From positions 248,001 to 312,000 of the forward strand of contig JARFXO010000005.1 of the NCBI GenBank assembly GCA_029194665.1: a stretch of DNA of 64,000 nucleotides, in the 5' to 3' direction. Position numbers and translations under genes: made by a program. Numbering within the stretch: the first letter of the stretch is position 1; every line of letters begins with the position of its first letter. Below, piece by piece: positions 1 through 16,345 of the stretch. The notes below the pieces were generated by a model that was not told the DNA's origin, ran no database searches, and worked only from the letters and a program-made list of their open reading frames with translations. This stretch comes from Nitrospira sp. GTDB taxonomy: Bacteria > Nitrospirota > Nitrospiria > Nitrospirales > Nitrospiraceae.

Positions 1-1
1 G

Positions 2-2173
2 GCACTCATGGGGGCACGCGATGTCGTCATGAGCACTGGAGACAACCTTGCACTGGCCCGAGTGACAATCGATCTCGCAGATGTTCTGCAGTGGCTCGGC
101 GATCTTCAGAGAGCCAGCGAGGAGATTGACCACGCGGCGTCGATTATCGCACCGCTCGTTGGCGATAGCGAGCCGACCCAGCAGGACATTATTTCTGGCG
201 CCTTGTCATCGGCTCAGAGCATCATGGCTGGGCGGGGGGATCCGGGCGATGCGATGCGTGCTGCTAACCTTTATAGAGCCAAAGTAGAGATCACGTATTA
301 TCGAGGGCTGATCTCGCGCGCGCTTGGTGAATGGGACAAAGCGGAACGTTGCTTCAACCAGGTTCTCCATGAATATCGGCAACTCGGCACGGGTGAGGCG
401 ATAGAATGGCAACTTGCTCGAGTCAAAGTCGGTCGAGGCGAACATCGCGACGCACTCAAAGAATTTTTTCGCATCGAGCCACAGTTTGAACGTGGCGCAC
501 TTCGTCCGAAGTGGGGAGTCCTCAAACGAGCGCAGGCGGAATGTCTGAACGCACTGGGTGATCACGCTGAAGCAATAGGGCTCCTTGGCAAAAGCATTGA
601 GGATCTCACCCACAAACACTTTGATCCGGATGCCCTCTGGCGGTCGCAGCAGCTTCAAGCAACCATTTGGAAAGCGCAAGGCGAATCGACATTAGCTCTT
701 CGTGCATACCACGAGGCCATAGCGACGATCAGTAGCCTGCGCCGCGCACCGCTAGGCTATCGGCTCGATAGCACTTATCTCGCCGACAAGCGGTCGGTCT
801 ATTCGCAAGCCATTGCTGCTGCACTGCAGGCAGACGCACCTGCTGACTGTTGCCGCTTCATTGAAAATCTTAAATCTCGTACTCTCACCGCAATATTGAG
901 CATCCCACGAGCAAAGAATGAGCAGCGGGGCAACTTGGAAAGTGCGTTCGATGAGCTGACAGCGCGGCTTGACGCGCTAGAGTATCAGGCCTACCGCGAT
1001 GGGTGGAGGACGGAGCTACGCTCTGCATACCGCGACCTGATGCGACAGCGTAAAGACCTCATCGAGCGGATACGGATCAGCGATACGCGTTGGCGTAATC
1101 TGTCCCAGCCTATTGCACTCGATGTAGGAGCGATTGTGGCAACGCTGTCGAAGCGATCCCAAGCCGCTCTCACTTTGTACTATGATGCGCCGGAGCTCGT
1201 ATCGGTCCTCATATATGATGGTGAGATTCGCGCCAAACGGATCATGCTCGCACCGGAGATCCCGAGCAAGCTTGCTGATTATGCCCGGAATCTCCAAAAG
1301 CCAAACCCTGATCCCTTCAAGCACGACTTTTCAGTTGAGTATGCGATTGATGCAGAGAATCTGATTCCACCTGATTTACTAGAGCGAGCGCTCGCGGCCA
1401 GATCTTTGGTAGTGATTCCGCATGGTCTCCTTCACCTGGTTCCCTGGGGGATGTTGATGCATCAGGGGGCGCGATTGTTCGAGCGCGTGCCCGTCGGTAT
1501 CCTTCCCAATCTGACTGTCCTTCAGCGTGACGGACAGGTGAGTCGACCGCAGCTCGCCGGACTAGTTGGCGTCCCAGCTTATCCTGATTTCGAAAGCCTT
1601 CAAGATCTACCGAGTATTCAAGAGGAGATTGAAACGATCCGCTCAGTGTACAAAGCCGCCAATATCCCCGTGCGAGGCCCACTGCTCGGCGAAGGTGCGA
1701 CTGAAGATGCTTTCTGGAACTTGGTTCGTGGAGTAACTGGACGCGGAAATCTTCTCCACGTTTCCTGCCATGGCGTAATATTGCCTAATGAGCCAATGGG
1801 ATCGGGGCTGCTGTTAGCCGATGCGAAGCTCGATGCCGCAGAAGTGGCGCGCAACCAACTGCCATTTGACGAAGTCATACTCAGCGCATGCAGCACTGGT
1901 TGGCGGCCAAACCAGGTTGGTGATGTCATATTGACTGCGGATGAAATACTCGGGATCCCGGCGGGATTCCTGGAGGCGGGTGCAAGAACGGTTCTGGTGA
2001 GCATCCCTAAAGCGGAAGCGCGTGCGGCATTAATGTTAACAACGTATTACCACCAGCAACGGGCATCCAGCATTCCACCGATTATGGCCTTCCAAGCTGC
2101 ACAAAGACACATGTTGGAGCGAAGCGTGCCCTCCAGTACCTGGGCAGGTTTCGCCCTGTACAGCGACGTTTGA
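2..2173 (+). CDS. TPR-CHAT caspase-like protease, 5' end outside window
   Basis: The N-terminal half is helical and repeat-like, typical of TPR arrays (for example the RALGEWDKAERCFNQVL unit near residue 105, counting from the ATG at 8). The C-terminal third is a CHAT domain, a caspase-clan cysteine protease fold. The catalytic pair is visible: His588 in the LLHVSCHG motif and Cys628 in the LSACSTG motif. In this family the TPRs usually sense or dock a partner and the CHAT domain cleaves a target. The frame is open to the left edge and the protein starts inside the repeat region, so the real start is probably upstream; the ATG at 8 has no supporting ribosome-binding site in view. It is followed after 18 bases by the hydrolase gene, which suggests one operon with the ubiquitin-like genes. 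Its substrate is not predictable from the sequence. Confidence 0.85.
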   Translation, partial: ALMGARDVVMSTGDNLALARVTIDLADVLQWLGDLQRASEEIDHAASIIAPLVGDSEPTQQDIISGALSSAQSIMAGRGDPGDAMRAANLYRAKVEITYYRGLISRALGEWDKAERCFNQVLHEYRQLGTGEAIEWQLARVKVGRGEHRDALKEFFRIEPQFERGALRPKWGVLKRAQAECLNALGDHAEAIGLLGKSIEDLTHKHFDPDALWRSQQLQATIWKAQGESTLALRAYHEAIATISSLRRAPLGYRLDSTYLADKRSVYSQAIAAALQADAPADCCRFIENLKSRTLTAILSIPRAKNEQRGNLESAFDELTARLDALEYQAYRDGWRTELRSAYRDLMRQRKDLIERIRISDTRWRNLSQPIALDVGAIVATLSKRSQAALTLYYDAPELVSVLIYDGEIRAKRIMLAPEIPSKLADYARNLQKPNPDPFKHDFSVEYAIDAENLIPPDLLERALAARSLVVIPHGLLHLVPWGMLMHQGARLFERVPVGILPNLTVLQRDGQVSRPQLAGLVGVPAYPDFESLQDLPSIQEEIETIRSVYKAANIPVRGPLLGEGATEDAFWNLVRGVTGRGNLLHVSCHGVILPNEPMGSGLLLADAKLDAAEVARNQLPFDEVILSACSTGWRPNQVGDVILTADEILGIPAGFLEAGARTVLVSIPKAEARAALMLTTYYHQQRASSIPPIMAFQAAQRHMLERSVPSSTWAGFALYSDV

Positions 2174-2191
2174 GACAGAGAGGACCTCAAA

Positions 2192-3568
2192 ATGGGTTCA
2201 CCGATGAACGATGTTATCGTGCTGCTACCCGGTATTATGGGGAGCGCCCTAGCAAAAGGAGGACACCCCGTATGGGATCTTTCGCCAGGAGCGATCGGCC
2301 GCGCGGTGTTCTCGTTGGGAAGTAGCATAGATATTCTGAAACTGACGAGTGATGCATCGACCGGGGATGGTGTCACTGCGACTCGGGTATTGCCAGATGC
2401 TCATATCGTTCCGTTCTGGTGGAAGATAGATGGCTATGCTGATGTTGTTAAATTCATCAGGTCGAAGTTCGATGTCGCGCCAGGCGAGAATTTCGTTGAG
2501 TTTCCGTACGATTGGCGTCTCGACAATAGCATCTCGGCTCAACGGCTGGCGGAAGTGGCGATGAACCGACTGGAGAGCTGGCGGACATTGCATCCAAGTG
2601 CCCAACTCATTCTCATTGGTCACTCCATGGGAGGATTGGTGGCTCGCTACTTCCTAGAGGTGCTTGGCGGGTGGCGCCACACGAAAATGCTAGTTACTCT
2701 CGGGACGCCGCACCGTGGCTCAGTCAAGGCGCTCGACTTTCTCGCCAACGGTTTGCGAAAGAAGATCGGCCCAGTAACGCTAATTGAACTCACTGCGCTC
2801 ATTCAGTCTTTTCCTTCCGCGTACCAGCTTCTCCCAATCTATCCATGCGTAGGCGAGGAGGAACACGAGTTGCAAGCACTCGAACACCTGAATATCAAGA
2901 CCTTGGGTAGCCTTGACATGGAACGTGCACGCGAGGGAATCGCATTCCACAGAAAAATCGAAAGATGCATAAAAGTCAATGAGCGTGACCCGATGTACAT
3001 AGCATCTCGCTATAGGCTACTTCCGGTGGTCGGCACGTACCAACCCACCTTTCAGAGCGCCCTCTTGACCGATGATGGAGTGAGGCCGCTCTATACATAC
3101 AAGGGGCAGACAATGCTAGACGGTGACGGCACGGTGCCGCGGCTATCGGCGACTCCCATTGAGCTGAGTAAGTCGAAGGTCGAGACCTTTGTCGCCTGTC
3201 CGCACGCTAGCCTTCAAAACTTTGATCCTGTGCGAGTACAGTTACGTGCCGCGCTTGAGGATGTCGACATAAGCGAGTTGAAGGCGGTTGGGCCTGAAGC
3301 AATCAGTATCGATCTACTGGACGCGTACTCGACCGGGGAAAGCTTCTGCGTCCGGGCGCGGTGCGAGTCCTCCGAAGGCCCCATGCAGGCAGTACTAACT
3401 AACTTGGAGACTTCTGTGACAACCGAGCACGAGTTCGATGCACGCGTTTCTAAAGATGGCTGGCAGGAACTTTGGGTTCCGTCACTGCAGCCCGGGGCCT
3501 ACCGCATCCGAGTGGCTGCAGACGACAACGCGGAGCCAATCGAGGATTTGTTCGTAGTGCTCGAATAG
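2192..3568 (+). CDS. LCAT-like alpha/beta hydrolase (lipase/acyltransferase fold)
   Basis: 458 residues. It opens with IVLLPGIMGSALA, the oxyanion/lid start typical of lecithin:cholesterol acyltransferase-like hydrolases. The FPYDWRLD motif follows, then the nucleophile elbow GHSMGG with Ser145. The Asp-containing DGDGTVPRLS segment (Asp310/312) and His338 in CPHASLQ complete a plausible Ser-Asp-His triad. About 90 C-terminal residues form a beta-rich, immunoglobulin-like tail. No signal peptide is seen, so a cytoplasmic or membrane-surface role is likely. The start has a good ribosome-binding site (GAGAGGACC), almost the same leader as the E1 gene. Family members cleave or transfer acyl groups on lipids. 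Inside this operon it could be a membrane-damaging effector, which is inference only. Confidence 0.8.
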   Translation: MGSPMNDVIVLLPGIMGSALAKGGHPVWDLSPGAIGRAVFSLGSSIDILKLTSDASTGDGVTATRVLPDAHIVPFWWKIDGYADVVKFIRSKFDVAPGENFVEFPYDWRLDNSISAQRLAEVAMNRLESWRTLHPSAQLILIGHSMGGLVARYFLEVLGGWRHTKMLVTLGTPHRGSVKALDFLANGLRKKIGPVTLIELTALIQSFPSAYQLLPIYPCVGEEEHELQALEHLNIKTLGSLDMERAREGIAFHRKIERCIKVNERDPMYIASRYRLLPVVGTYQPTFQSALLTDDGVRPLYTYKGQTMLDGDGTVPRLSATPIELSKSKVETFVACPHASLQNFDPVRVQLRAALEDVDISELKAVGPEAISIDLLDAYSTGESFCVRARCESSEGPMQAVLTNLETSVTTEHEFDARVSKDGWQELWVPSLQPGAYRIRVAADDNAEPIEDLFVVLE

Positions 3569-3619
3569 GAACTTTGTTGAAACGCTATTCTTCTTTTCTA
3601 CCGACGTATGGAGAAAACC

Positions 3620-3808
3620 ATGACTAATAGAGACCCAAATGCAGTCGGTAAAGCTTTGCAGACTATGGCCAAGGGGCAACAGGACGCTGAAGAACTAGTT
3701 TACGACCCTCATTCGGGCACGCTGGAAGTGGCTAGGAAGGGTGAAGTCATAGAAGATCGAGATCGGGTGCCAGCTACTGTGATGGCACGGGAAGGGTTCT
3801 TTTGCTGA
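3620..3808 (+). CDS. 62-residue protein ending Gly-Phe-Phe-Cys; candidate modifier of the E1/E2 system
   Basis: A short gene lies between the hydrolase and the E1-like gene. The ATG at 3620 is preferred over the one at 3608 because GGAG sits six bases upstream. The protein is charged, with no membrane segment. Its central LVYDPHSGTLEVARKGEVI stretch reads like two beta strands, and the C-terminus is AREGFFC. There is no di-glycine tail, but a single Gly lies three residues from the end, so trimming by the neighbouring JAB peptidase is conceivable. Position next to an E1 is typical of ubiquitin-like or peptide modifiers, but at 62 residues it is short for a full beta-grasp fold. It may instead be a substrate, an antitoxin-like partner or a peptide tag. 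I do not recognise a family. Confidence 0.65.
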   Translation: MTNRDPNAVGKALQTMAKGQQDAEELVYDPHSGTLEVARKGEVIEDRDRVPATVMAREGFFC

Positions 3809-3827
3809 ATTAAGAGAGAGGATCAAA

Positions 3828-5045
3828 ATGCAGGCCCTGCAGCCTAAGGCGATCTTGTTCTGCCATGAGATCGAAGCTTTGCAGATATCTGGCTGTTCTT
3901 CCGGAGTGGGAGTTGCTCACCTCCGAGATGAACAGGAAGGTATCCCGGAAGTTATTCATCTCTCGCTGGCGGAGTCAATTTCGTACATTTCGGACAAACG
4001 TAGGTTGCCGCTCGAGTGGTATTTAAAGTGTCGCAATGGCGAGGAACAAGCAAGCCGAATGTTACTTCCTCACGCGACCGTCTTGATCGATACGGAATCT
4101 TCTCCAGCAAGAGCGCGCTGTGTCCTTCGCCTGAGTGCAAGCCAGACGGTCGACTGTACCGTTGAAATCGTGCAGACTGGCGCTCAAGCTTTTACGCGAA
4201 ACGCACCCATTCTTGAGACAGGTACTCTAGCTCACACTACAGTGCTCTGCATTGGCCTTGGCAGTGGCGGTTCGGCTGTCATCGACCAGCTAGCGCGCTC
4301 TGGAGTCGGACGCTTCATCCTCTGGGATATGGACCGGATCGAAGCTCACAACGTAGGGCGGCATGTGTGTACGCTGCGTGATTTGGGAAGGAGGAAAGTC
4401 TTCGCAGTTCGGGACCACATACTTGCCATCAATCCAATGGCCAAAGTCGATTGTTTTCATAAAGATGTACTACAGCAGCCAAATTTGGCTGGTGAACTCG
4501 ACCAAGTCGTAATGGAGGCCGACTGTGTCATCGTGGGAACCGACAACAACGCCTCCCGTTTTGCCATCAACGACTCAGCCTGGCGCAGCCAAAAGACCGC
4601 ACTGTACGGGAGAGCATTTACACGAGCCTCGGGTGGTGACGTGATTCAAGTAATTCCGCCTGAATCGCCGTGTTACTCCTGCCACGTTGGGGGACGCATT
4701 GTAACGGAGGAGATTTCATCAACTCGAGACGTCGTTCGTGTGGCCTATGCTGATAAAAGTGTACCCATCGAGCCCGGACTTATCATCGATATCCAGCCGA
4801 TCGCTAATATGATCGCGCGTCTATGCCTGCTCCGACTTTGCGAAAAGTTCGACTCTTCATTAAAGAGTTTCGCTAGCGAAATGACGGCTCCACTCTATTT
4901 GTGGGCTAACCGCAGAGAGGATCAGTTTGTGAGGTGGCAACCGATGGAGCGCTCCTACGATAGGCTATCAGTTCTACGCTGGTACGCTATTTCTGTTCCC
5001 CGAGATAAGGAGTGTCCAACATGCGGGAACTTTGGCGCAGCTTAG
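3828..5045 (+). CDS. E1-like (ThiF/MoeB-fold) activating enzyme
   Basis: 405 residues: an N-terminal domain of about 130 residues that I do not recognise, then a ThiF/E1 adenylation domain. The nucleotide-binding loop is GLGSGGSAV (Gly143-Gly148), followed by the WDMDRIEAHNVGRH segment, where the Asp and Arg contact ATP in this family. Two Cys pairs, Cys282/Cys285 and Cys396/Cys399, match the structural zinc site of ThiF/MoeB proteins. No obvious separate catalytic Cys stands out. E1 enzymes adenylate the C-terminus of a ubiquitin-like protein or peptide, and the 62-residue product just upstream is the nearest candidate. The gene has a strong ribosome-binding site (AGAGAGGATC) and its 3' end overlaps the JAB gene by 25 bases, indicating coupled translation. 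Confidence 0.88.
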   Translation: MQALQPKAILFCHEIEALQISGCSSGVGVAHLRDEQEGIPEVIHLSLAESISYISDKRRLPLEWYLKCRNGEEQASRMLLPHATVLIDTESSPARARCVLRLSASQTVDCTVEIVQTGAQAFTRNAPILETGTLAHTTVLCIGLGSGGSAVIDQLARSGVGRFILWDMDRIEAHNVGRHVCTLRDLGRRKVFAVRDHILAINPMAKVDCFHKDVLQQPNLAGELDQVVMEADCVIVGTDNNASRFAINDSAWRSQKTALYGRAFTRASGGDVIQVIPPESPCYSCHVGGRIVTEEISSTRDVVRVAYADKSVPIEPGLIIDIQPIANMIARLCLLRLCEKFDSSLKSFASEMTAPLYLWANRREDQFVRWQPMERSYDRLSVLRWYAISVPRDKECPTCGNFGAA

Positions 5046-5986
5046 GTTACCGAGGAACCAAGGATACCGAGGGCCTCGACACACCGACAAAGGAGTTTCG
5101 CAAGGTCATAATCTACAAGTCCGAAGCGGACCGTTTGGCTTTGCTCGCTCTTCAGTATCTCGAAACGGAGACCGGTGGAGATCTTTTTGGATATTGGACT
5201 CACACTGGGTCGCCGATCGTTTCGTATGTGATCGGTCCTGGACGGCAAAGCAAGCATAATCGGACGAGCTTTTACCAGGACGAGAACTATCTCCGTGATG
5301 TCGGGACCGAACTTTACGATCAACATGGGCTTCAGCACATCGGTGAATGGCACTCCCACCACCGCCTAGGCTTGAACCGACCTAGTCAGGGCGATATGGA
5401 TACCGTGCGTTCAGGCATGAGCCAGAAACACTGGTCTCGTTTCTTATTGTTAATTACGACCGTCGAAGGCGAGAACATAGGGATGGTCCTCCAAAACTAC
5501 TTTCTTTTTTCAGATAGCGCCAGGGACCCCGACCCTCTACGGATTTTCAGTCTGCCAGGTGTGAGCCCGTTTCGGAGATCTGGAGATGACGCTCGAGAGG
5601 AAGAACTTCGTCGTGATAGCGAGATATTTTGGCGACCCGGCCCCTTTACTCCTGGGACGCGGCGATTGGCAGACGAAGTTTTCAAGAGCACGTGGTTCAC
5701 AAGTGCCGAAGGAAAGGCACTCCTCGTGCGAATCGCCAAACAATTCGCATCGGCCGGTATAAGCTGCCGAATGATTCCAACAGATGACGGACAAACCCTA
5801 AAGTTGGAGTTGCCAGATGCTACGCTTGTTCTTGGCTCGCAGTTTCCAAACGAGCCACCGCAGTGGATAGCCTCTAAGCAGCCCAGCAACTATCCACCCT
5901 GGTCACCGGGCGTGGAACTGGTGGATTGGTACATAACAACAAAACAGAAGTATGCTTTCGGAAACTGTGGTCAAGAAAGGAAATGA
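5021..5986 (+). CDS. JAB/JAMM metallo-isopeptidase with C-terminal E2/UBC-like module
   Basis: 321 residues. The N-terminal 150 residues carry the full JAMM zinc signature: Glu50 in the ETGG context, His111-Ser-His113 in EWHSHH, then Ser122 and Asp125 in RPSQGD. JAMM enzymes remove or mature ubiquitin-like tags. From about residue 200 the protein changes: a helical link, then strands with SQFPNEPPQW, which resembles the FPxxPP turn of ubiquitin-conjugating (UBC/RWD) folds. No active-site Cys motif follows it, so this second module is probably a non-catalytic adaptor (inference). The ATG at 5021 is chosen over the GTG at 5012 because AGGAG lies eight bases before it. It overlaps the E1 gene upstream, and its stop overlaps the E2 start in ATGA. 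Confidence 0.87.
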   Translation: MRELWRSLGYRGTKDTEGLDTPTKEFRKVIIYKSEADRLALLALQYLETETGGDLFGYWTHTGSPIVSYVIGPGRQSKHNRTSFYQDENYLRDVGTELYDQHGLQHIGEWHSHHRLGLNRPSQGDMDTVRSGMSQKHWSRFLLLITTVEGENIGMVLQNYFLFSDSARDPDPLRIFSLPGVSPFRRSGDDAREEELRRDSEIFWRPGPFTPGTRRLADEVFKSTWFTSAEGKALLVRIAKQFASAGISCRMIPTDDGQTLKLELPDATLVLGSQFPNEPPQWIASKQPSNYPPWSPGVELVDWYITTKQKYAFGNCGQERK

Positions 5987-6429
5987 TCGGCATGGAAGCG
6001 AAGACGAGGCTCGAAAATGAAAAGCAGGCACTGAGAAGATACTTCCCCAAGTTCAAGATTCAGGATCCCGATGGACTCAAAGCCGGCGTGATCGGTCGTA
6101 TGGTCTCCAATAGTGGGAAGGAATATGTTGTCTGGCTCTCGTTAGAGGGTTTTCCCAACAAAGCGCCGAAGATGTACATAATTTCCCCTGATCCCTTATT
6201 GGCTTGTGATGGTAGGCCACTAGCAAGCCTCGCAATGAGTTCCAGGATGCATTTGCTTCAGCCCGATGATCATGGGCATCCACAGATATGTCATTATAAC
6301 GATCAGTTTTGGCACCCTAAGGTGGCGCTCTATAAGATACTAATGAAGGCTCGTATATGGCTAGAAGCTTACGAGCAACACTTAATCCATGGTGACCCGA
6401 TCGACACATACTTGTCACATATGCAATGA
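5983..6429 (+). CDS. E2-like (UBC-fold) conjugating protein
   Basis: 148 residues. A helix and strands lead to LEGFPNKAPKMYII, matching the FPxxPP turn of E2 enzymes. Then comes HPQICHYNDQFWHP, which mimics the E2 HPN-x-Cys region with candidate catalytic Cys103 and the downstream Trp-Pro. Two C-terminal helices follow (ILMKARIWLEAYEQHL). This is close to the 'prokaryotic E2' families found beside bacterial E1 and JAB genes. The start is the ATG in the ATGA overlap with the JAB stop, preceded by AGAAAGGAA; a longer frame starting at 5926 lies inside the JAB gene and is not needed. Expected role: take an activated modifier from the E1 as a thioester and pass it to a target. Confidence 0.78.
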   Translation: MIGMEAKTRLENEKQALRRYFPKFKIQDPDGLKAGVIGRMVSNSGKEYVVWLSLEGFPNKAPKMYIISPDPLLACDGRPLASLAMSSRMHLLQPDDHGHPQICHYNDQFWHPKVALYKILMKARIWLEAYEQHLIHGDPIDTYLSHMQ

Positions 6430-6435
6430 CGATTT

Positions 6436-6816
6436 ATGAATGAATTGGAATTTCTCATGTGGTTCTTTTTACTGCCCATATGTCTTGCTGTAATCGTTGT
6501 TGTGCTAAAGGTCGCTTTCTGGTTTTGGTTCATATACCGCGTTGGCCGGGGCGCGGGCCAGGTTGTTCAACTTTACAATCAAGCCGTTGAATCTTGGTTC
6601 GTCCAGATTGCACGTGCCATTCAGGAGGGGCAGCGGCAGGACGCGATCATCGCGCTGCAGCGTCAAGCGGTTGCGGAGATCCACCACCTACCCCGTCACG
6701 AGCGAAGAGTACACCAACAGAGACTATCCGACGTCATGTCCGAGAGAGTCAGGTTGAATACCAGGACTGGCGAGTGGGAGGAGGAGTCACAAGCATCCAA
6801 CCTTGTGCAAGGCTAG
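6436..6816 (+). CDS. Small membrane-anchored protein
   Basis: 126 residues. The first 40 form one long or two short hydrophobic segments rich in Phe, Trp, Leu, Ile and Val, followed by a positively charged stretch. The remaining 85 residues are helical and hydrophilic, predicted to sit in the cytoplasm. No enzyme motif is seen and no family is recognised. It lies six bases after the E2 gene and two bases before the AAA+ gene, so it belongs to the same operon. It could hold the conjugation or AAA+ machinery at the inner membrane, or be the protein whose integrity is monitored; both are inference. Confidence 0.7.
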   Translation: MNELEFLMWFFLLPICLAVIVVVLKVAFWFWFIYRVGRGAGQVVQLYNQAVESWFVQIARAIQEGQRQDAIIALQRQAVAEIHHLPRHERRVHQQRLSDVMSERVRLNTRTGEWEEESQASNLVQG

Positions 6817-6818
6817 CG

Positions 6819-9293
6819 ATGCATGGAGGCGAACCATTGAAGCAACTTGCCATGGAGGGCAATCGCGCTTTCTCACTTGGCCTCAACAATGTGAACTTCC
6901 GGGTTGAGCGCATCTCGAACAATCGCATAGGGGGCGCAAGCGGCACACTCATGGTCAAGTTGTGGGCACTCCAATCACCGTTCGAGGGGGGGAAGCTGAA
7001 CGGTTATATCGTGGGAGTTAGAAAATTACAGCCTCTGAATGGGGGTGACTCGATTCGCGACCTCAATGTAACTGTCACTGCGGAAACCATACCGAACGGC
7101 TACTACTATCCCATCTTGACCCTTGAGGAGCGTGACTCTGATTCACCGAATGGTTGGTATATCATGGATTTACATGCGTTTGATAAACCCGCCTTTTTCG
7201 GGAAGCGGCTAATAGCGAAAGGCATGCGCCTCCAGTCTTCTTCTGCGGTGGAGGTTAGTCTTTCAGAAATCAGCAACCAGACAAGAGAAGCCACGGGTCT
7301 ACTTAGAGTAAGCGTGTGGGCGACGAGCGAACCCTATAGCGGTGGTGCAATCACCGGGTTTAGGCTCGGAAGTGAGGAGCTTGGCACGCTGGCGGGCGGA
7401 AAGAGCTATCGCGACCTCGCCTGGAGGCTAGATCGCACGCCCGTAACCGAGACGGCAAAGTTTGCTGTCCTCCTCTTGGAAGAAAAGCGAATGGACGAGC
7501 AGAAATCTTGGCACCTGCAAGACTACTGTAGCGTGGGCATGACGCCCATCGTTACGCCACTCGAAAATGAATTCGCGCAATCTAAACGGCCCCTGGCTGC
7601 TGCGCAGGCTGCGAGCGCCGCCGCCTCTCCAACTACTCGCGCGGAGCCAGAAATCAAGGAGGAAGATATCATTGGTCAGGGACGCGCCAAGGCTGCCTTG
7701 CACGAGATCATAGCGTTCGCAGCTGTCAACGAAGAACGTCGCCGTCGAGGTCTCAGCGTGCCACGATTGACGCTGCATGCGGCCTTCATGGGCAGTCCTG
7801 GTACTGGCAAAACAACCTTCGCACGCTTTTATGCACAGCAGATCCGAGCGCTGGGGTTGCTCCAATGTGGCCACCTTATTGAGGTCTCGCGTTCCGATCT
7901 CGTAGCAGAGTATATGGGGCAGACAGCTGTGAAGACTGCGAAAGCTATTGAGTCTGCGCTTGGCGGCGTGCTCTTTATCGACGAGGCGTATGCTCTCAAA
8001 CAGCACAAGGAGGACGGGTACGGAGACGAGTGTATCGATACACTCGTCAAGAAGATGGAAGATCATAGGGACGAGCTGGTTATAATCTTCGCCGGCTACA
8101 GTGCAGAGATGCGGGAATTCCTTCGGCAGAACACGGGGCTTGAGAGCCGTGTTCCAAACGTGATTGAATTCGAAGACTTTGATGACACCGATCTCGGAAT
8201 GATCCTTGACTCGTTCTGCAAGCGGGAAAGAGTCTCGCTTCCGACAGAATTGCGTGATCACGTCGTGGAGCAAATTGCAGCGCGGCGGCATGGACGCACA
8301 TTCGGTAACGCGCGCGACGTGCGCAACATTTTTGAACGAGCCCTGGCGAGGCAGGCCGTTCGCCTCGGCGAGAGAGATCTCAAAGCGGTCACAGGTGAGG
8401 AACTCTCGCGGTTTGAGCTTTCCGACTTCAAACCCGACTCCGAAGACAATGCATCTAAGCCGCATGAGCGAATTATTGCCAGCGGCAGTGCCTTGGAGCA
8501 ACTGCTCGGCCTTGTGGGGCTTGCGAACATAAAGCGTGATGTGCGTGAAACGACAGCACTAATTCGCGTCGAGCGTGTGCGACACCGCGGTCGCGGACTG
8601 TCTGCATTCGGCCTACATCGCTTGTACGCCGGAGCGCCCGGTACAGGAAAGAGAACGGTTGCACGTCTTTTCGCCGTATTCCTGCGCGAAAGTGGCCTTC
8701 TAGCACGTGGCCATATCATCGAGGTCTCTCGCGCGGATTTGATAGCGGGTTATGTGGGACAGACTTCACTGAAGACGCGGGAGCGGGTGGAGGAGGCGAT
8801 GGGCGGCGTCCTCTACGTTGACGACGCGCCCTCGCTCTGGAGGCATAAGGAGAAATACGACATAGACGCCATTGAAGCTATCATTGATGCTGCCGAGGCC
8901 CATCGCGATAAGGTGGTGGTCATCCTGGCGGGTGACATCATTGAGTTGAACGGCATGTTTGAACAAGACCCACGACTGCGACGTGTGTTTCCGACACCAG
9001 TAGAGTTTAATTCCCCCAGCACGGACGAACTGCTCGAGATTGGTTGTCAAATGGCGGCAGCAAGTGGCGACCGACTCGATGCCCTTGCCCGTTCAGAACT
9101 TCGAACCCAGATAGATGTCGCACGAGCGGGTATCGTGCGATTCGCCAATGGCAACGCGGTTCGAGATTTATTGGAGCGAGCGTACAAACGCCGTGCGCTC
9201 CGGTTAGAGAAACTGGGTGACCTGTCCAGCCTTACCCCGAGCCTCTTGCACGCTCTGGAACGCGAAGACTTTGTGTCAAGTAGGGACACGTAG
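6819..9293 (+). CDS. Double CbbX-type AAA+ ATPase with tandem N-terminal beta modules
   Basis: 824 residues from the ATG at 6819. A longer frame back to 6594 would run inside the membrane-protein gene. Residues about 12-125 and 130-245 are two copies of one beta-rich module (compare VKLWALQSPFEGGKLNGY with VSVWATSEPYSGGAITGF), unknown to me by name. Then come two AAA+ domains of the CbbX/SpoVK type. The first has GSPGTGKT (Lys331) and Walker B FIDEA (Asp388, Glu389), so it looks active. The second has GAPGTGKR (Lys611, then Arg instead of Thr) and YVDDA (Asp669 in place of the catalytic Glu), so it probably binds but hydrolyses ATP poorly. AAA+ motors of this class remodel or unfold partner proteins, consistent with handling tagged proteins in this operon. 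Confidence 0.85.
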   Translation: MHGGEPLKQLAMEGNRAFSLGLNNVNFRVERISNNRIGGASGTLMVKLWALQSPFEGGKLNGYIVGVRKLQPLNGGDSIRDLNVTVTAETIPNGYYYPILTLEERDSDSPNGWYIMDLHAFDKPAFFGKRLIAKGMRLQSSSAVEVSLSEISNQTREATGLLRVSVWATSEPYSGGAITGFRLGSEELGTLAGGKSYRDLAWRLDRTPVTETAKFAVLLLEEKRMDEQKSWHLQDYCSVGMTPIVTPLENEFAQSKRPLAAAQAASAAASPTTRAEPEIKEEDIIGQGRAKAALHEIIAFAAVNEERRRRGLSVPRLTLHAAFMGSPGTGKTTFARFYAQQIRALGLLQCGHLIEVSRSDLVAEYMGQTAVKTAKAIESALGGVLFIDEAYALKQHKEDGYGDECIDTLVKKMEDHRDELVIIFAGYSAEMREFLRQNTGLESRVPNVIEFEDFDDTDLGMILDSFCKRERVSLPTELRDHVVEQIAARRHGRTFGNARDVRNIFERALARQAVRLGERDLKAVTGEELSRFELSDFKPDSEDNASKPHERIIASGSALEQLLGLVGLANIKRDVRETTALIRVERVRHRGRGLSAFGLHRLYAGAPGTGKRTVARLFAVFLRESGLLARGHIIEVSRADLIAGYVGQTSLKTRERVEEAMGGVLYVDDAPSLWRHKEKYDIDAIEAIIDAAEAHRDKVVVILAGDIIELNGMFEQDPRLRRVFPTPVEFNSPSTDELLEIGCQMAAASGDRLDALARSELRTQIDVARAGIVRFANGNAVRDLLERAYKRRALRLEKLGDLSSLTPSLLHALEREDFVSSRDT

Positions 9294-14122: not shown

Positions 14123-14208
14123 GGGCAGGTACCCAAGCGGCCAAAGGGGGCAGACTGTAAATCTGCTGGCTTATGTCTTCCAAGGTTCGAATCCTTGCCT
14201 GCCCACCA
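14123..14208 (+). tRNA. tRNA-Tyr (anticodon GTA)
   Basis: Acceptor stem GGGCAGG pairs with CCTGCCC. The anticodon loop CTGTAAA gives GTA, and the T-loop GGTTCGAATCC is standard. A long variable arm is present, as expected for bacterial tRNA-Tyr. The CCA end is encoded. First of three tRNA genes in a row. Confidence 0.95.
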
Positions 14209-14318
14209 AACCAAGCGTCGCTCGTACCGGCGAGCTTGTGAGTGGGCGAGCCGGATAAACACCTTAACAATATAAATAATGATGCAAAGGGCGCTTGAGC
14301 GAGGAAAGTTAAGAAGAG

Positions 14319-14393
14319 GCGGGCGTAGCTCAGTGGTAGAGTTCCAGCCTTCCAAGCTGGCTGTCGTGGGTTCAAATCCCATCGCCCGCTCCA
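14319..14393 (+). tRNA. tRNA-Gly (anticodon TCC)
   Basis: Acceptor stem GCGGGCG pairs with CGCCCGC. The anticodon loop CTTCCAA gives TCC, and the T-arm GTGGGTTCAAATCCCAT is normal. The encoded CCA ends at 14393. Confidence 0.95.
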
Positions 14394-14461
14394 AACCGAG
14401 CTTGCTCGACCCGGAGCGCTAGAGAATGGGGCGCGACGAGAGAAGGCCAATAGTGTTGATG

Positions 14462-14537
14462 GCCCACGTAGCTCAGTTGGTAGAGCACGTCCTTGGTAAG
14501 GACGAGGTCACGCGTTCGATCCGCGTCGTGGGCTCCA
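14462..14537 (+). tRNA. tRNA-Thr (anticodon GGT)
   Basis: Acceptor stem GCCCACG pairs with CGTGGGC. The anticodon loop TTGGTAA gives GGT. The D-arm AGCTCAGTTGGTAGAGC and T-arm are canonical, and CCA is encoded. The Tyr-Gly-Thr-tuf order is the classic bacterial tRNA-tufB arrangement. Confidence 0.95.
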
Positions 14538-16270: not shown

Positions 16271-16345
16271 AGGGGCATGGTGTTAATGGCAGCACATCGG
16301 TCTCCAAAACCGAGAGTCTGGGTTCAAATCCTAGTGCCCCTGCCA
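16271..16345 (+). tRNA. tRNA-Trp (anticodon CCA)
   Basis: Acceptor stem AGGGGCA pairs with TGCCCCT. The anticodon loop CTCCAAA gives CCA, and the T-arm CTGGGTTCAAATCCTAG is normal. The encoded CCA ends at 16345. The position between rpmG and secE is widely conserved in bacteria. Confidence 0.95.

Follow-up and report, generated by a model that had tools for sequence, protein, structure and literature searches.

A 64,000-nucleotide stretch of a Nitrospira sp. genome (hereafter the window; positions 248001-312000 of its contig, in a 4.8-Mb genome) carried an eight-gene array on the + strand, in which genes for an E1-like adenylyltransferase, an E2-like conjugating enzyme and a JAMM/JAB isopeptidase were accompanied by genes for a 62-residue protein, a CHAT protease, an LCAT-like hydrolase, a small membrane protein and a double AAA+ protein (Table 1). 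As a whole, the array is best explained, with a probability of roughly 0.6, by a peptide-tagging E1-E2-JAMM cascade with a ~60-residue modifier that is predicted to lack the beta-grasp fold. A four-gene core made of JAB, E2, the ~60-residue protein and E1 recurred patchily in about a dozen phyla. An earlier note, made from the letters of the window alone, had mentioned the 62-residue protein as one member of the array; its presence was borne out, and its probable role had been missed, as it recurred as a conserved core partner and is the most likely modifier. The note was right to single out the locus, the interest of which lies less in the list of eight genes than in this peptide. To our knowledge, E1-E2-dependent modifiers share the beta-grasp fold, with the cGAS/DncV-like nucleotidyltransferase (CD-NTase) of the cyclic oligonucleotide-based antiphage signalling system (CBASS) and the MccA peptide as known exceptions.

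Distribution of the four-gene core

The genome_contigs collection was scanned with a two-row JAB alignment, which returned 141 relatives, and 80 loci were kept. Open reading frames (ORFs) were called in 88 loci (numbered L below), the window's own included (n = 14,678), and profiles iterated on these ORFs retrieved 82 small-family members in 71 loci, 88 E2s in 81, 90 JABs in 88 and 89 E1s in 82. Among the 80 genome_contigs loci, all found by JAB alone, 70 possessed E2, small-family and E1 matches together. Four of the other ten were cut by contig ends, and six had E2 and E1 without a small-family profile match; in two of these six (L071, L082), E1 was preceded by a 56-residue ORF that has a GWA tail and escaped the profile, and the other four were of the CBASS type (see below). 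The small protein was present in a tail-less form in three of the 70 loci (L086, L090, L091). Overall, a tailed small protein was encoded in 69 of the 76 complete loci, the split, like the tails of L071 and L082, being read by eye.

The commonest gene order was JAB-E2-small-E1 (41 loci in plain form), and the order of the window, small-E1-JAB-E2, was found in three loci. The organisms represented in the E1 tree spanned about a dozen phyla, and the recurrence of the core in such distant genomes excludes a chance array. Recurrence of the full eight-gene order had been proposed as a check in the earlier note itself; that order did not recur in the loci fetched, and the small protein, E1, E2 and JAB recurred instead. 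Two loci found by E2 alone (L110, L121) also carried the small protein adjoining E1, and among six longer stretches around E2-profile matches it was present in L109 (on the contig of L021), L110 and L121. The genome of the window had one match to the small-family profile, at the expected place, and ten other whole genomes had 18 matches, all inside cassette loci by coordinates.

In the plasmid collection, E2 matched two Bradyrhizobium barranii records at one place each. JAB, E2 and E1 were adjacent in the one examined, the N-terminus of its E1 resembling the 62-residue protein (E = 0.001, single comparison), and the window small protein itself had no match in this collection. E2 matches were rare: genomes with one (E<=1e-4) represented 3/245 in the window's own phylum, 5/296 in Bacteroidota, 1/244 in Cyanobacteria and 3/346 in Actinobacteria, counts that include seed genomes and several weak matches that look like other E2 families. 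A single-sequence JAB search in the window's own phylum matched 4/245 genomes.

Divergent forms were also observed. In the window's phylum, one cassette (L005/L111) had a tail-less small ORF before its E2, which was unmatched by the profile and was not counted. A variant on a plasmid of Mesorhizobium sp. AR10 (L009, 6964-11870) began with a 57-residue protein, followed by E2, a Phd-antitoxin-annotated protein that aligned with E2 without its Cys, E1 and JAB, and ended with an ORF that by reading resembles a metallo-beta-lactamase and a patatin-like phospholipase. In L107 (genome G417), a 492-residue protein with a nucleotidyltransferase-like N-terminus matched the E2 profile (3.8e-8), a possible synthase-E2 fusion.

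The ~60-residue protein

Conservation in the small family was concentrated at its C-terminus. The tail Gly, present in 53/55 rows, was conserved more strongly than any other alignment column and was followed by Phe (52/56) and then by Ala or Phe (53/56; Ala 31, Phe 22); a hairpin Thr was present in 52/56. Beyond Gly-Phe-(Ala/Phe), 54 of the 57 members counted had 0-6 or 8 residues. A tail-plus-hairpin pattern, chosen, like its two component patterns, after the family had been seen, was present in 49/61 family ORFs and in 0/6970 other like-sized ORFs of the same loci, among which the tail pattern alone occurred in 3 and the hairpin pattern alone in 62.

Family members were encoded directly upstream of E1 in 54/82 cases and fused to the E1 N-terminus in 13/82, including two tail-less ones (L086, L091). 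The remaining 15/82 were tandem copies, copies ahead of other ORFs, extra nearby copies and hairpin-only proteins. Two consecutive copies, both ending in a tail or a similar sequence, were found in L012, L021 and L080. The AlphaFold2 (AF2) model of a natural fusion (L017; mean predicted local distance difference test score, pLDDT, 83.8; predicted template modelling score, pTM, 0.77) showed a tag part made of a helix, a hairpin and a short helix, and the junction GFF (residues 61-63) was one of four segments with pLDDT <50. This fits a flexible, cleavable junction in the model, although it is no proof of one.

Pfam and NCBIfam scans of 37 small-family members gave single weak matches and no family model; a Multi_ubiq match in one member (E 0.02) was taken as chance. 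A PDB profile search with the small family gave six matches up to E = 1 (best 7.5e-07, 6.8e-06 and 0.07), the best three being SAKe proteins, which we take to be designed, aligned at the hairpin columns. The small protein is predicted to be a helix-hairpin without a beta-grasp, with a near-invariant Gly-Phe-(Ala/Phe) C-terminus. No description of the family was recognised in the open-access literature searched, and a prior description may exist elsewhere, for instance in a preprint.

The hairpin was also encountered outside the family. Several near-cassette proteins, membrane or Ig-like by reading, start with a tag-type hairpin (e.g. LVYNPVTGMF) without the tail (Table 1), where it is perhaps a shared recognition element.

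The close company with E1, which 67 of the 82 members adjoin or are fused to, would also fit a regulatory or docking subunit of E1, with the modifier encoded elsewhere or provided by an effector C-terminus, as by the CD-NTase in CBASS. Accessory proteins carrying the hairpin alone in some operons point the same way, as do the CBASS-clade E1s, which keep the helix-hairpin as an N-terminal domain, so that this part probably has an E1-related role. We nevertheless consider this explanation improbable, because the tail holds the most conserved residue and either ends standalone proteins or lies at the low-confidence fusion junction, tandem copies exist, open frames of L013 place the small protein ahead of non-E1 proteins, and the tail is the very part that is missing where a CD-NTase is present. 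The small protein is probably the modifier (tag) itself.

E1, E2 and JAB

The E1 profile search matched MoeB, ThiF, MccB and UBA5. The L017 model matched, over residues about 190-482, UBA5 (Z 27.9, root-mean-square deviation (rmsd) 2.0, 233 aligned), MoeB (27.2), MccB (25.0) and BubCD (24.6). In 68 rows, G143, G145, G148, D167, N175, R178, K190, D239 and both CxxC pairs were invariant or nearly so, and E1 possessed the ThiF domain, the nucleotide and adenylation residues and the CxxC zinc pairs of the ThiF/MoeB/UBA5 class.

Twelve of 70 E1s (L015-L020, L026, L028, L042, L043, L045, L047), compared with 5 of 428 other long ORFs, themselves ended in a modifier-like tail (DDGFFG, DNIFAS, AAGFFG, etc.), as judged by a simple pattern chosen after the tails had been seen; the E1 of L121 did so as well. 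Such tails raise the question of whether the E1 is a pseudo-substrate or is self-conjugated.

In E2, Cys122 and His109, 13 residues upstream of it, were invariant in 40/40 rows, and the residue after the Cys was His in at least 90% of rows. Similarity to known E2s was weak: the window protein had a PADLOC E2 match of 1.2e-3, UQ_con matched 3/40 members, and nearly all of the best 60 of 111 PDB profile matches were E2/UBC or RWD-type, the best having an E of 0.0021. In JAB, the zinc site (E53 in ETGG, H114, H116, S125 and D128) was invariant in 43 rows. The model of the window JAB (mean pLDDT 85.0, pTM 0.65) matched a Caldiarchaeum Rpn11 homolog (Z 17.5, rmsd 2.5, 144 aligned) as well as CSN5, BRCC36 and Cap3 structures (residues roughly 28-200 of 324), placing the Glu and HxH..S..D site of the JAMM/JAB family in an MPN fold. 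The iterated E2 profile, which may have absorbed such rows during iteration, reached JAB proteins in five loci, which suggests that the JAB C-terminal domain is a dead E2-like domain.

The earlier note's description of an E1-E2-JAMM cassette with core motifs was thereby upheld, for E1 and JAMM by profile, motif and predicted fold, and for E2 by motif and weak profile matches. Of the profiles it had proposed to search, the Pfam ones for CHAT (3.7e-37, with TPRs), LCAT (4.7e-17), ThiF (5.3e-33), Prok-JAB (1.1e-05) and AAA (6.5e-26 over two stretches) matched the window proteins; E2 and the 62-residue protein gave zero Pfam matches up to E = 1, and the membrane protein a chance-level one. Judged from its sequences, the core is very probably of the conjugation type.

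The good match of E1 to MccB, by profile and in the model, together with the conserved peptide tail, could also indicate a pathway for ribosomally synthesised and post-translationally modified peptides (RiPPs), in which the small protein would be a precursor and E1, as an MccB-like adenylating enzyme, would make a peptide antibiotic or signal. MccB, of the microcin C7 pathway, adenylates the C-terminus of MccA, a peptide of seven residues, and acts with no E2 and no isopeptidase. E2 and JAMM isopeptidases are not expected in RiPP clusters, and typical RiPP cores are not conserved across phyla. An E2 of its own, in which Cys and His are invariant, an Rpn11/CSN5-class JAMM, UBA5 and MoeB as the best model matches, and a helix-hairpin conserved across phyla make such a pathway highly unlikely here.

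A CBASS-linked sister clade

A SMODS nucleotidyltransferase and a SAVED protein were encoded beside the core in six loci (L008, L085-L089), whose E1s formed one branch (support 100/99) in a tree that left out the L012 and L013 E1s as too short. The first fork of the tree placed the window and L045 E1s together with this branch; the two were weakly paired (87/22), the window row being long. In the CBASS clade, JAB, E2 and E1 were separate genes, and the helix-hairpin part was fixed on E1 and tail-less (L008, L085, L086, L087, L089, L091). The CD-NTase ended in FG(S/A)(T/Q)FG(Q/A) in 6/6 loci, a seventh match, in an overlapping frame of L008, being dropped, and in L087 E1 and the nucleotidyltransferase shared one open frame of 770 residues.

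The E1-E2 enzyme of type II CBASS acts on the CD-NTase C-terminus. In the sister clade the E1-fused relative is tail-less and a CD-NTase ending in FGxxFG(Q/A) follows. Most simply read, the tail would be the part used as substrate, and the helix-hairpin would serve for docking. On balance, we lean slightly towards a new modifier class, i.e. a first E1-E2-JAMM pathway with a dedicated non-beta-grasp tag, tandem or E1-fused precursors and exchangeable AAA+ unfoldases and effectors, and with a CBASS form that moved conjugation to the CD-NTase tail in a related clade. If so, a short dedicated peptide would serve as modifier and the enzymes, not the ubiquitin fold, would define the pathway; the tandem and E1-fused precursors would parallel ubiquitin precursors, and E1-E2 chemistry would gain a small system in which peptide tagging is linked to bacterial AAA+ proteins. 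The related CBASS clade, with its missing tail, makes the peptide-tag idea directly testable.

Comparison with known systems

Pup is likewise a short protein tag without the ubiquitin fold and linked to an AAA+ unfoldase; it differs in using a glutamine-synthetase-like ligase instead of E1/E2 and in its C-terminal GGE/Q. With MccB, the window shares the ThiF-class match. In type II CBASS (Cap2 E1-E2, Cap3 JAB), as in the window, E1, E2 and JAMM enzymes share one operon, the modified CD-NTase C-terminus is likewise not a beta-grasp, and the window E1 has relatives in the CBASS-linked clade described above. The window differs by its separate E2 and E1, by its dedicated ~60-residue tag and by the lack of a CD-NTase among its eight proteins, in agreement with the earlier note, which had seen no cyclic-nucleotide synthase.

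The Bub system combines a ubiquitin-like protein, BubA, with BubB-D, and no ubiquitin-like gene was recognised among the eight window proteins in what is a partial comparison. The modelled E1 fold is similar to that of BubCD (see above), and the operon idea is common to both (PMC13373217). In the ISG15-like Bil system (BilABCD), one operon encodes modifier, E1, E2 and JAB, with JAB processing the precursor (PMC11354881). BilA has two ubiquitin-like domains, whereas the window family has a helix and hairpin with a GF(A/F) tail; no ubiquitin-like family match was obtained among the eight proteins, and the AF2 model of the relative's fusion gave helix, hairpin and helix. A diverged Bil, Bub or type II CBASS system would account for the same enzyme classes, for BubCD among the structural matches and for the CBASS-linked related clade. 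Such a system is nonetheless quite improbable given an array with neither a CD-NTase nor a recognised ubiquitin-like gene, an E2 separate from E1, and a modelled modifier without beta-grasp in a relative.

Neighbourhoods of E1, E2 and JAB with a sporadic, mobile distribution were classified as types 6a-6e by Iyer et al. (2006), with separate JAB, E1 and E2 plus a small protein in type 6d and dead E2-like domains in type 6e (PMC1779556). The modifiers identified in that work are beta-grasp proteins, the small one of type 6d having a C-terminal Gly, and the 6d JAB has an N-terminal alpha+beta domain, whereas the window family has a GF(A/F) tail and no beta-grasp in the model, and the window JAB matches from about residue 28 of 324 and has its extra, E2-like domain at the C-terminus. 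Type 6a, an E2-E1-JAB triple fusion with a metallo-beta-lactamase, differs from the three separate window genes, and no such match was obtained among the eight proteins.

The TPR-CHAT protease is shared with Csx29 of the type III-E Craspase. The window CHAT protein scored 36.6 bits against that family's cutoff of 300, and no Cas (gRAMP) effector match was found among the eight proteins.

Partner genes

As the earlier note had reported, a CHAT protease and an AAA+ protein were both present in the array, supported by the Pfam matches above. The claim that the eight genes formed one system was not supported. Relatives of LCAT or of the window-type AAA+ protein were found, among the 88 loci, at the window locus only (single-sequence searches, E 1e-3), and the AAA+ N-terminal region had no match in the plasmid collection. 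A CHAT protein was found within the fetched flanks of 6/88 loci (window, L051, L042, L043, L060, L027) with a CHAT profile that was itself built from four of these six (window, L051, L042, L043); Pfam was examined for the CHAT proteins of L042, L043 and L051, and two of the CHAT-bearing loci were actinobacterial and had the small-E1-JAB-E2 order of the window.

The gene following an LCAT relative, read in five of 32 plasmid records, was annotated as CHAT in Bradyrhizobium sp. 27S5 and Rhizobium acidisoli, as NACHT in Sphaerospermopsis, as a TPR protein in Rhodococcus and as an ATP-binding protein in R. johnstonii. As LCAT adjoins CHAT elsewhere without the cassette, the pair probably forms an independent module, which in the window became joined to the tagging cassette. 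In L117 and L119, on plasmids, and in L118, an LCAT-like hydrolase adjoined CHAT or NACHT, with no E1 or E2 annotated in the stretch, which makes it a possible effector module.

Clp-type AAA+ relatives were present in 29/88 loci, within the core's gene run in 24. The Clp D2 segment was readable in 12 of the 29 (L027-L083), the other 17 not being read by the pattern, and 11/12 were without the (I/V/L)G(F/L) tripeptide; as this loop tripeptide was mostly missing, ClpP docking is doubtful and these relatives may work without ClpP. L012 carried dynamin-like GTPases. In L013 (a Pseudomonadales metagenome-assembled genome, 1-17900, whose genome gave the two best JAB matches), a close relative of the cassette was surrounded by type III-B CRISPR genes and a viperin (Cmr3, Cmr4, Cmr6, CARF, CARF-HEPN, Cas2 and viperin matches), and five tag-segment copies, some of them in frames with a Cas2-like and a long uncharacterised protein, were accompanied by a short CRISPR-like repeat array. 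A CRISPR link as a rule was rejected, the Cmr and CARF seeds matching L013 only and the viperin seed L013 and, weakly, L059. Overall, the core seems to exchange its partners, the CHAT, lipase and AAA+ genes among them.

Proposed mechanism

Families, motifs, tail conservation, linkage, fusions and repeats are supported by the sequences and models. Every chemical step that follows, the target, the coupling to AAA+, CHAT and LCAT and the biological role are putative. JAB would trim the few residues beyond Gly-Phe-(Phe/Ala), or free the tag from tandem or E1-fused precursors, and the exposed C-terminus would be adenylated by E1. The tag would then pass to the invariant E2 Cys; the probably dead E2-like domain at the JAB C-terminus would assist in this transfer, as, probably, would docking through the tag helix and hairpin. 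E2 would attach the tag to the target, and JAB would reverse the attachment. In the window, the AAA+ motor may handle the tagged protein, while CHAT and the lipase-like hydrolase would together act as toxic effectors, and an anti-phage or stress response would be the favoured role. Gene order and company make it an even bet that tagging controls CHAT and LCAT as effectors in such a conflict or defence role. The scheme of the earlier note, in which the AAA+ protein would sense tagging and release CHAT or the hydrolase, is conjectural.

Several points weigh against this scheme. Beyond the two CxxC pairs, no invariant Cys was found in the 68 E1s (C181 in 65%), so that an E1 thioester is unsupported and E2 may receive the tag directly from the adenylate. 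The tail is GF(A/F), not Gly-Gly, and a Phe or Ala C-terminus would be unusual for an E1 substrate. Three loci with more distant E2s (L111, L112, L113) had no small-protein match in the stretches searched, and the tail statistics come from loci picked by one JAB pattern set, many rows being related Bacteroidales and Caldisericota. Most Clp partners fell within a single Bacteroidota-centred region of the E1 tree, and their association may therefore be one event; the CRISPR link was confined to 1/88 loci (L013), where the E1 frame is interrupted, and the CHAT count was obtained with a profile seeded from most of the loci counted. The combination of CHAT, LCAT and AAA+ partners seen in the window does not recur, and two rhizobial plasmids carry an LCAT-CHAT pair with no cassette.

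These last two points also favour a narrower reading, in which the core is a system that attaches a peptide tag and the window's genes for CHAT, LCAT, the membrane protein and AAA+ are mere neighbours in a mobile island, as do the tyrosine-recombinase, DDE transposase and DUF72 matches upstream. The tight spacing throughout the eight genes, CHAT within the fetched flanks at five more loci, including two from actinobacteria that share the window order, and the recurrence elsewhere of AAA+ partners of another class make it unlikely that they are mere neighbours, less so than the alternatives above.

Organisation and surroundings of the window locus

All eight genes of the compact array described in the earlier note were present and near-contiguous, with one correction: the CHAT gene is cut at the window edge, its full length being 861 aa and its start lying 413 nt before base 1 (L003:3588). 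Intergenic gaps were 2-51 nt, plus two overlaps (ORF coordinates, starts checked): 18 nt from CHAT to LCAT-like, 51 nt from LCAT-like to the small protein and 19 nt from there to E1; JAB overlaps E1 by 25 nt and E2 overlaps JAB by 4 nt; 6 nt separate E2 from the membrane protein and 2 nt the latter from the AAA+ protein. The JAB start is an ATG at 5021, preceded by AAGGAG. The nearest NCBIfam models of the AAA+ protein were SpoVK, CbbX and EccA, and its N-terminal region, without a Pfam family, looked duplicated by eye. The C-terminus of the membrane protein (NTRTGEWEEES) is faintly like the modifier hairpin, a likeness that stays an impression because it fails the hairpin patterns used.

Table 1. 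Features of the window array (window coordinates) and hairpin-only proteins found near other cassettes (locus and position).
Feature	Position	Strand	Remarks
TPR-CHAT caspase-like protease	1..2173	+	C-terminal 723 of 861 aa; HVSCHG (His) and LSACST (Cys) seen by eye
LCAT-like alpha/beta hydrolase	2192..3568	+	GHSMGG nucleophile motif by eye; ATG at 2192 or 2204
62-aa putative peptide modifier	3620..3808	+	Helix, LVYDPHSGTL hairpin, EGFF-C tail (GFF = residues 59-61 of 62)
E1-like adenylyltransferase (ThiF/MoeB/UBA5 class)	3828..5045	+	Own N-terminal domain; two CxxC pairs
JAMM/JAB isopeptidase (Rpn11/CSN5-like), C-terminal E2/RWD-like domain	5021..5986	+	
JAB C-terminal domain, probable catalytically dead E2-like (UEV/RWD-like)	5657..5983	+	Helix, four strands, helix
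E2-like conjugating enzyme	5983..6429	+	Invariant Cys codon 6289-6291 (QICHY); upstream His 6250-6252
Small membrane protein	6436..6816	+	Hydrophobic N-terminal segment by eye
Double AAA+ protein (SpoVK/CbbX/EccA class)	6819..9293	+	Second Walker B = VLYVDDAP
Hairpin-only proteins	L025 12809, L044 7462, L058 7768, L061 5019, L079 6313, L080 15470		
Further hairpin-only proteins	L041 11763, L046 12861, L051 12878, L054 6565, L073 12789		

Upstream of the array, ORFs had Pfam matches to DDE transposase, tyrosine recombinase, AAA_16 ATPase and DUF72. The DDE transposase was read as IS630-type, and a MobC-like ORF without a Pfam match was also read there. No compositional island signal was found, the GC content of the cassette being 0.540 compared to 0.544 for the remaining window. 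Downstream, a UvrD-type helicase was followed by tRNA genes (window 14123-14537 and 16271-16345) and then by a translation/transcription gene region (EF-Tu, ribosomal proteins and RpoB, by reading); this tRNA-rich site could favour island insertion.

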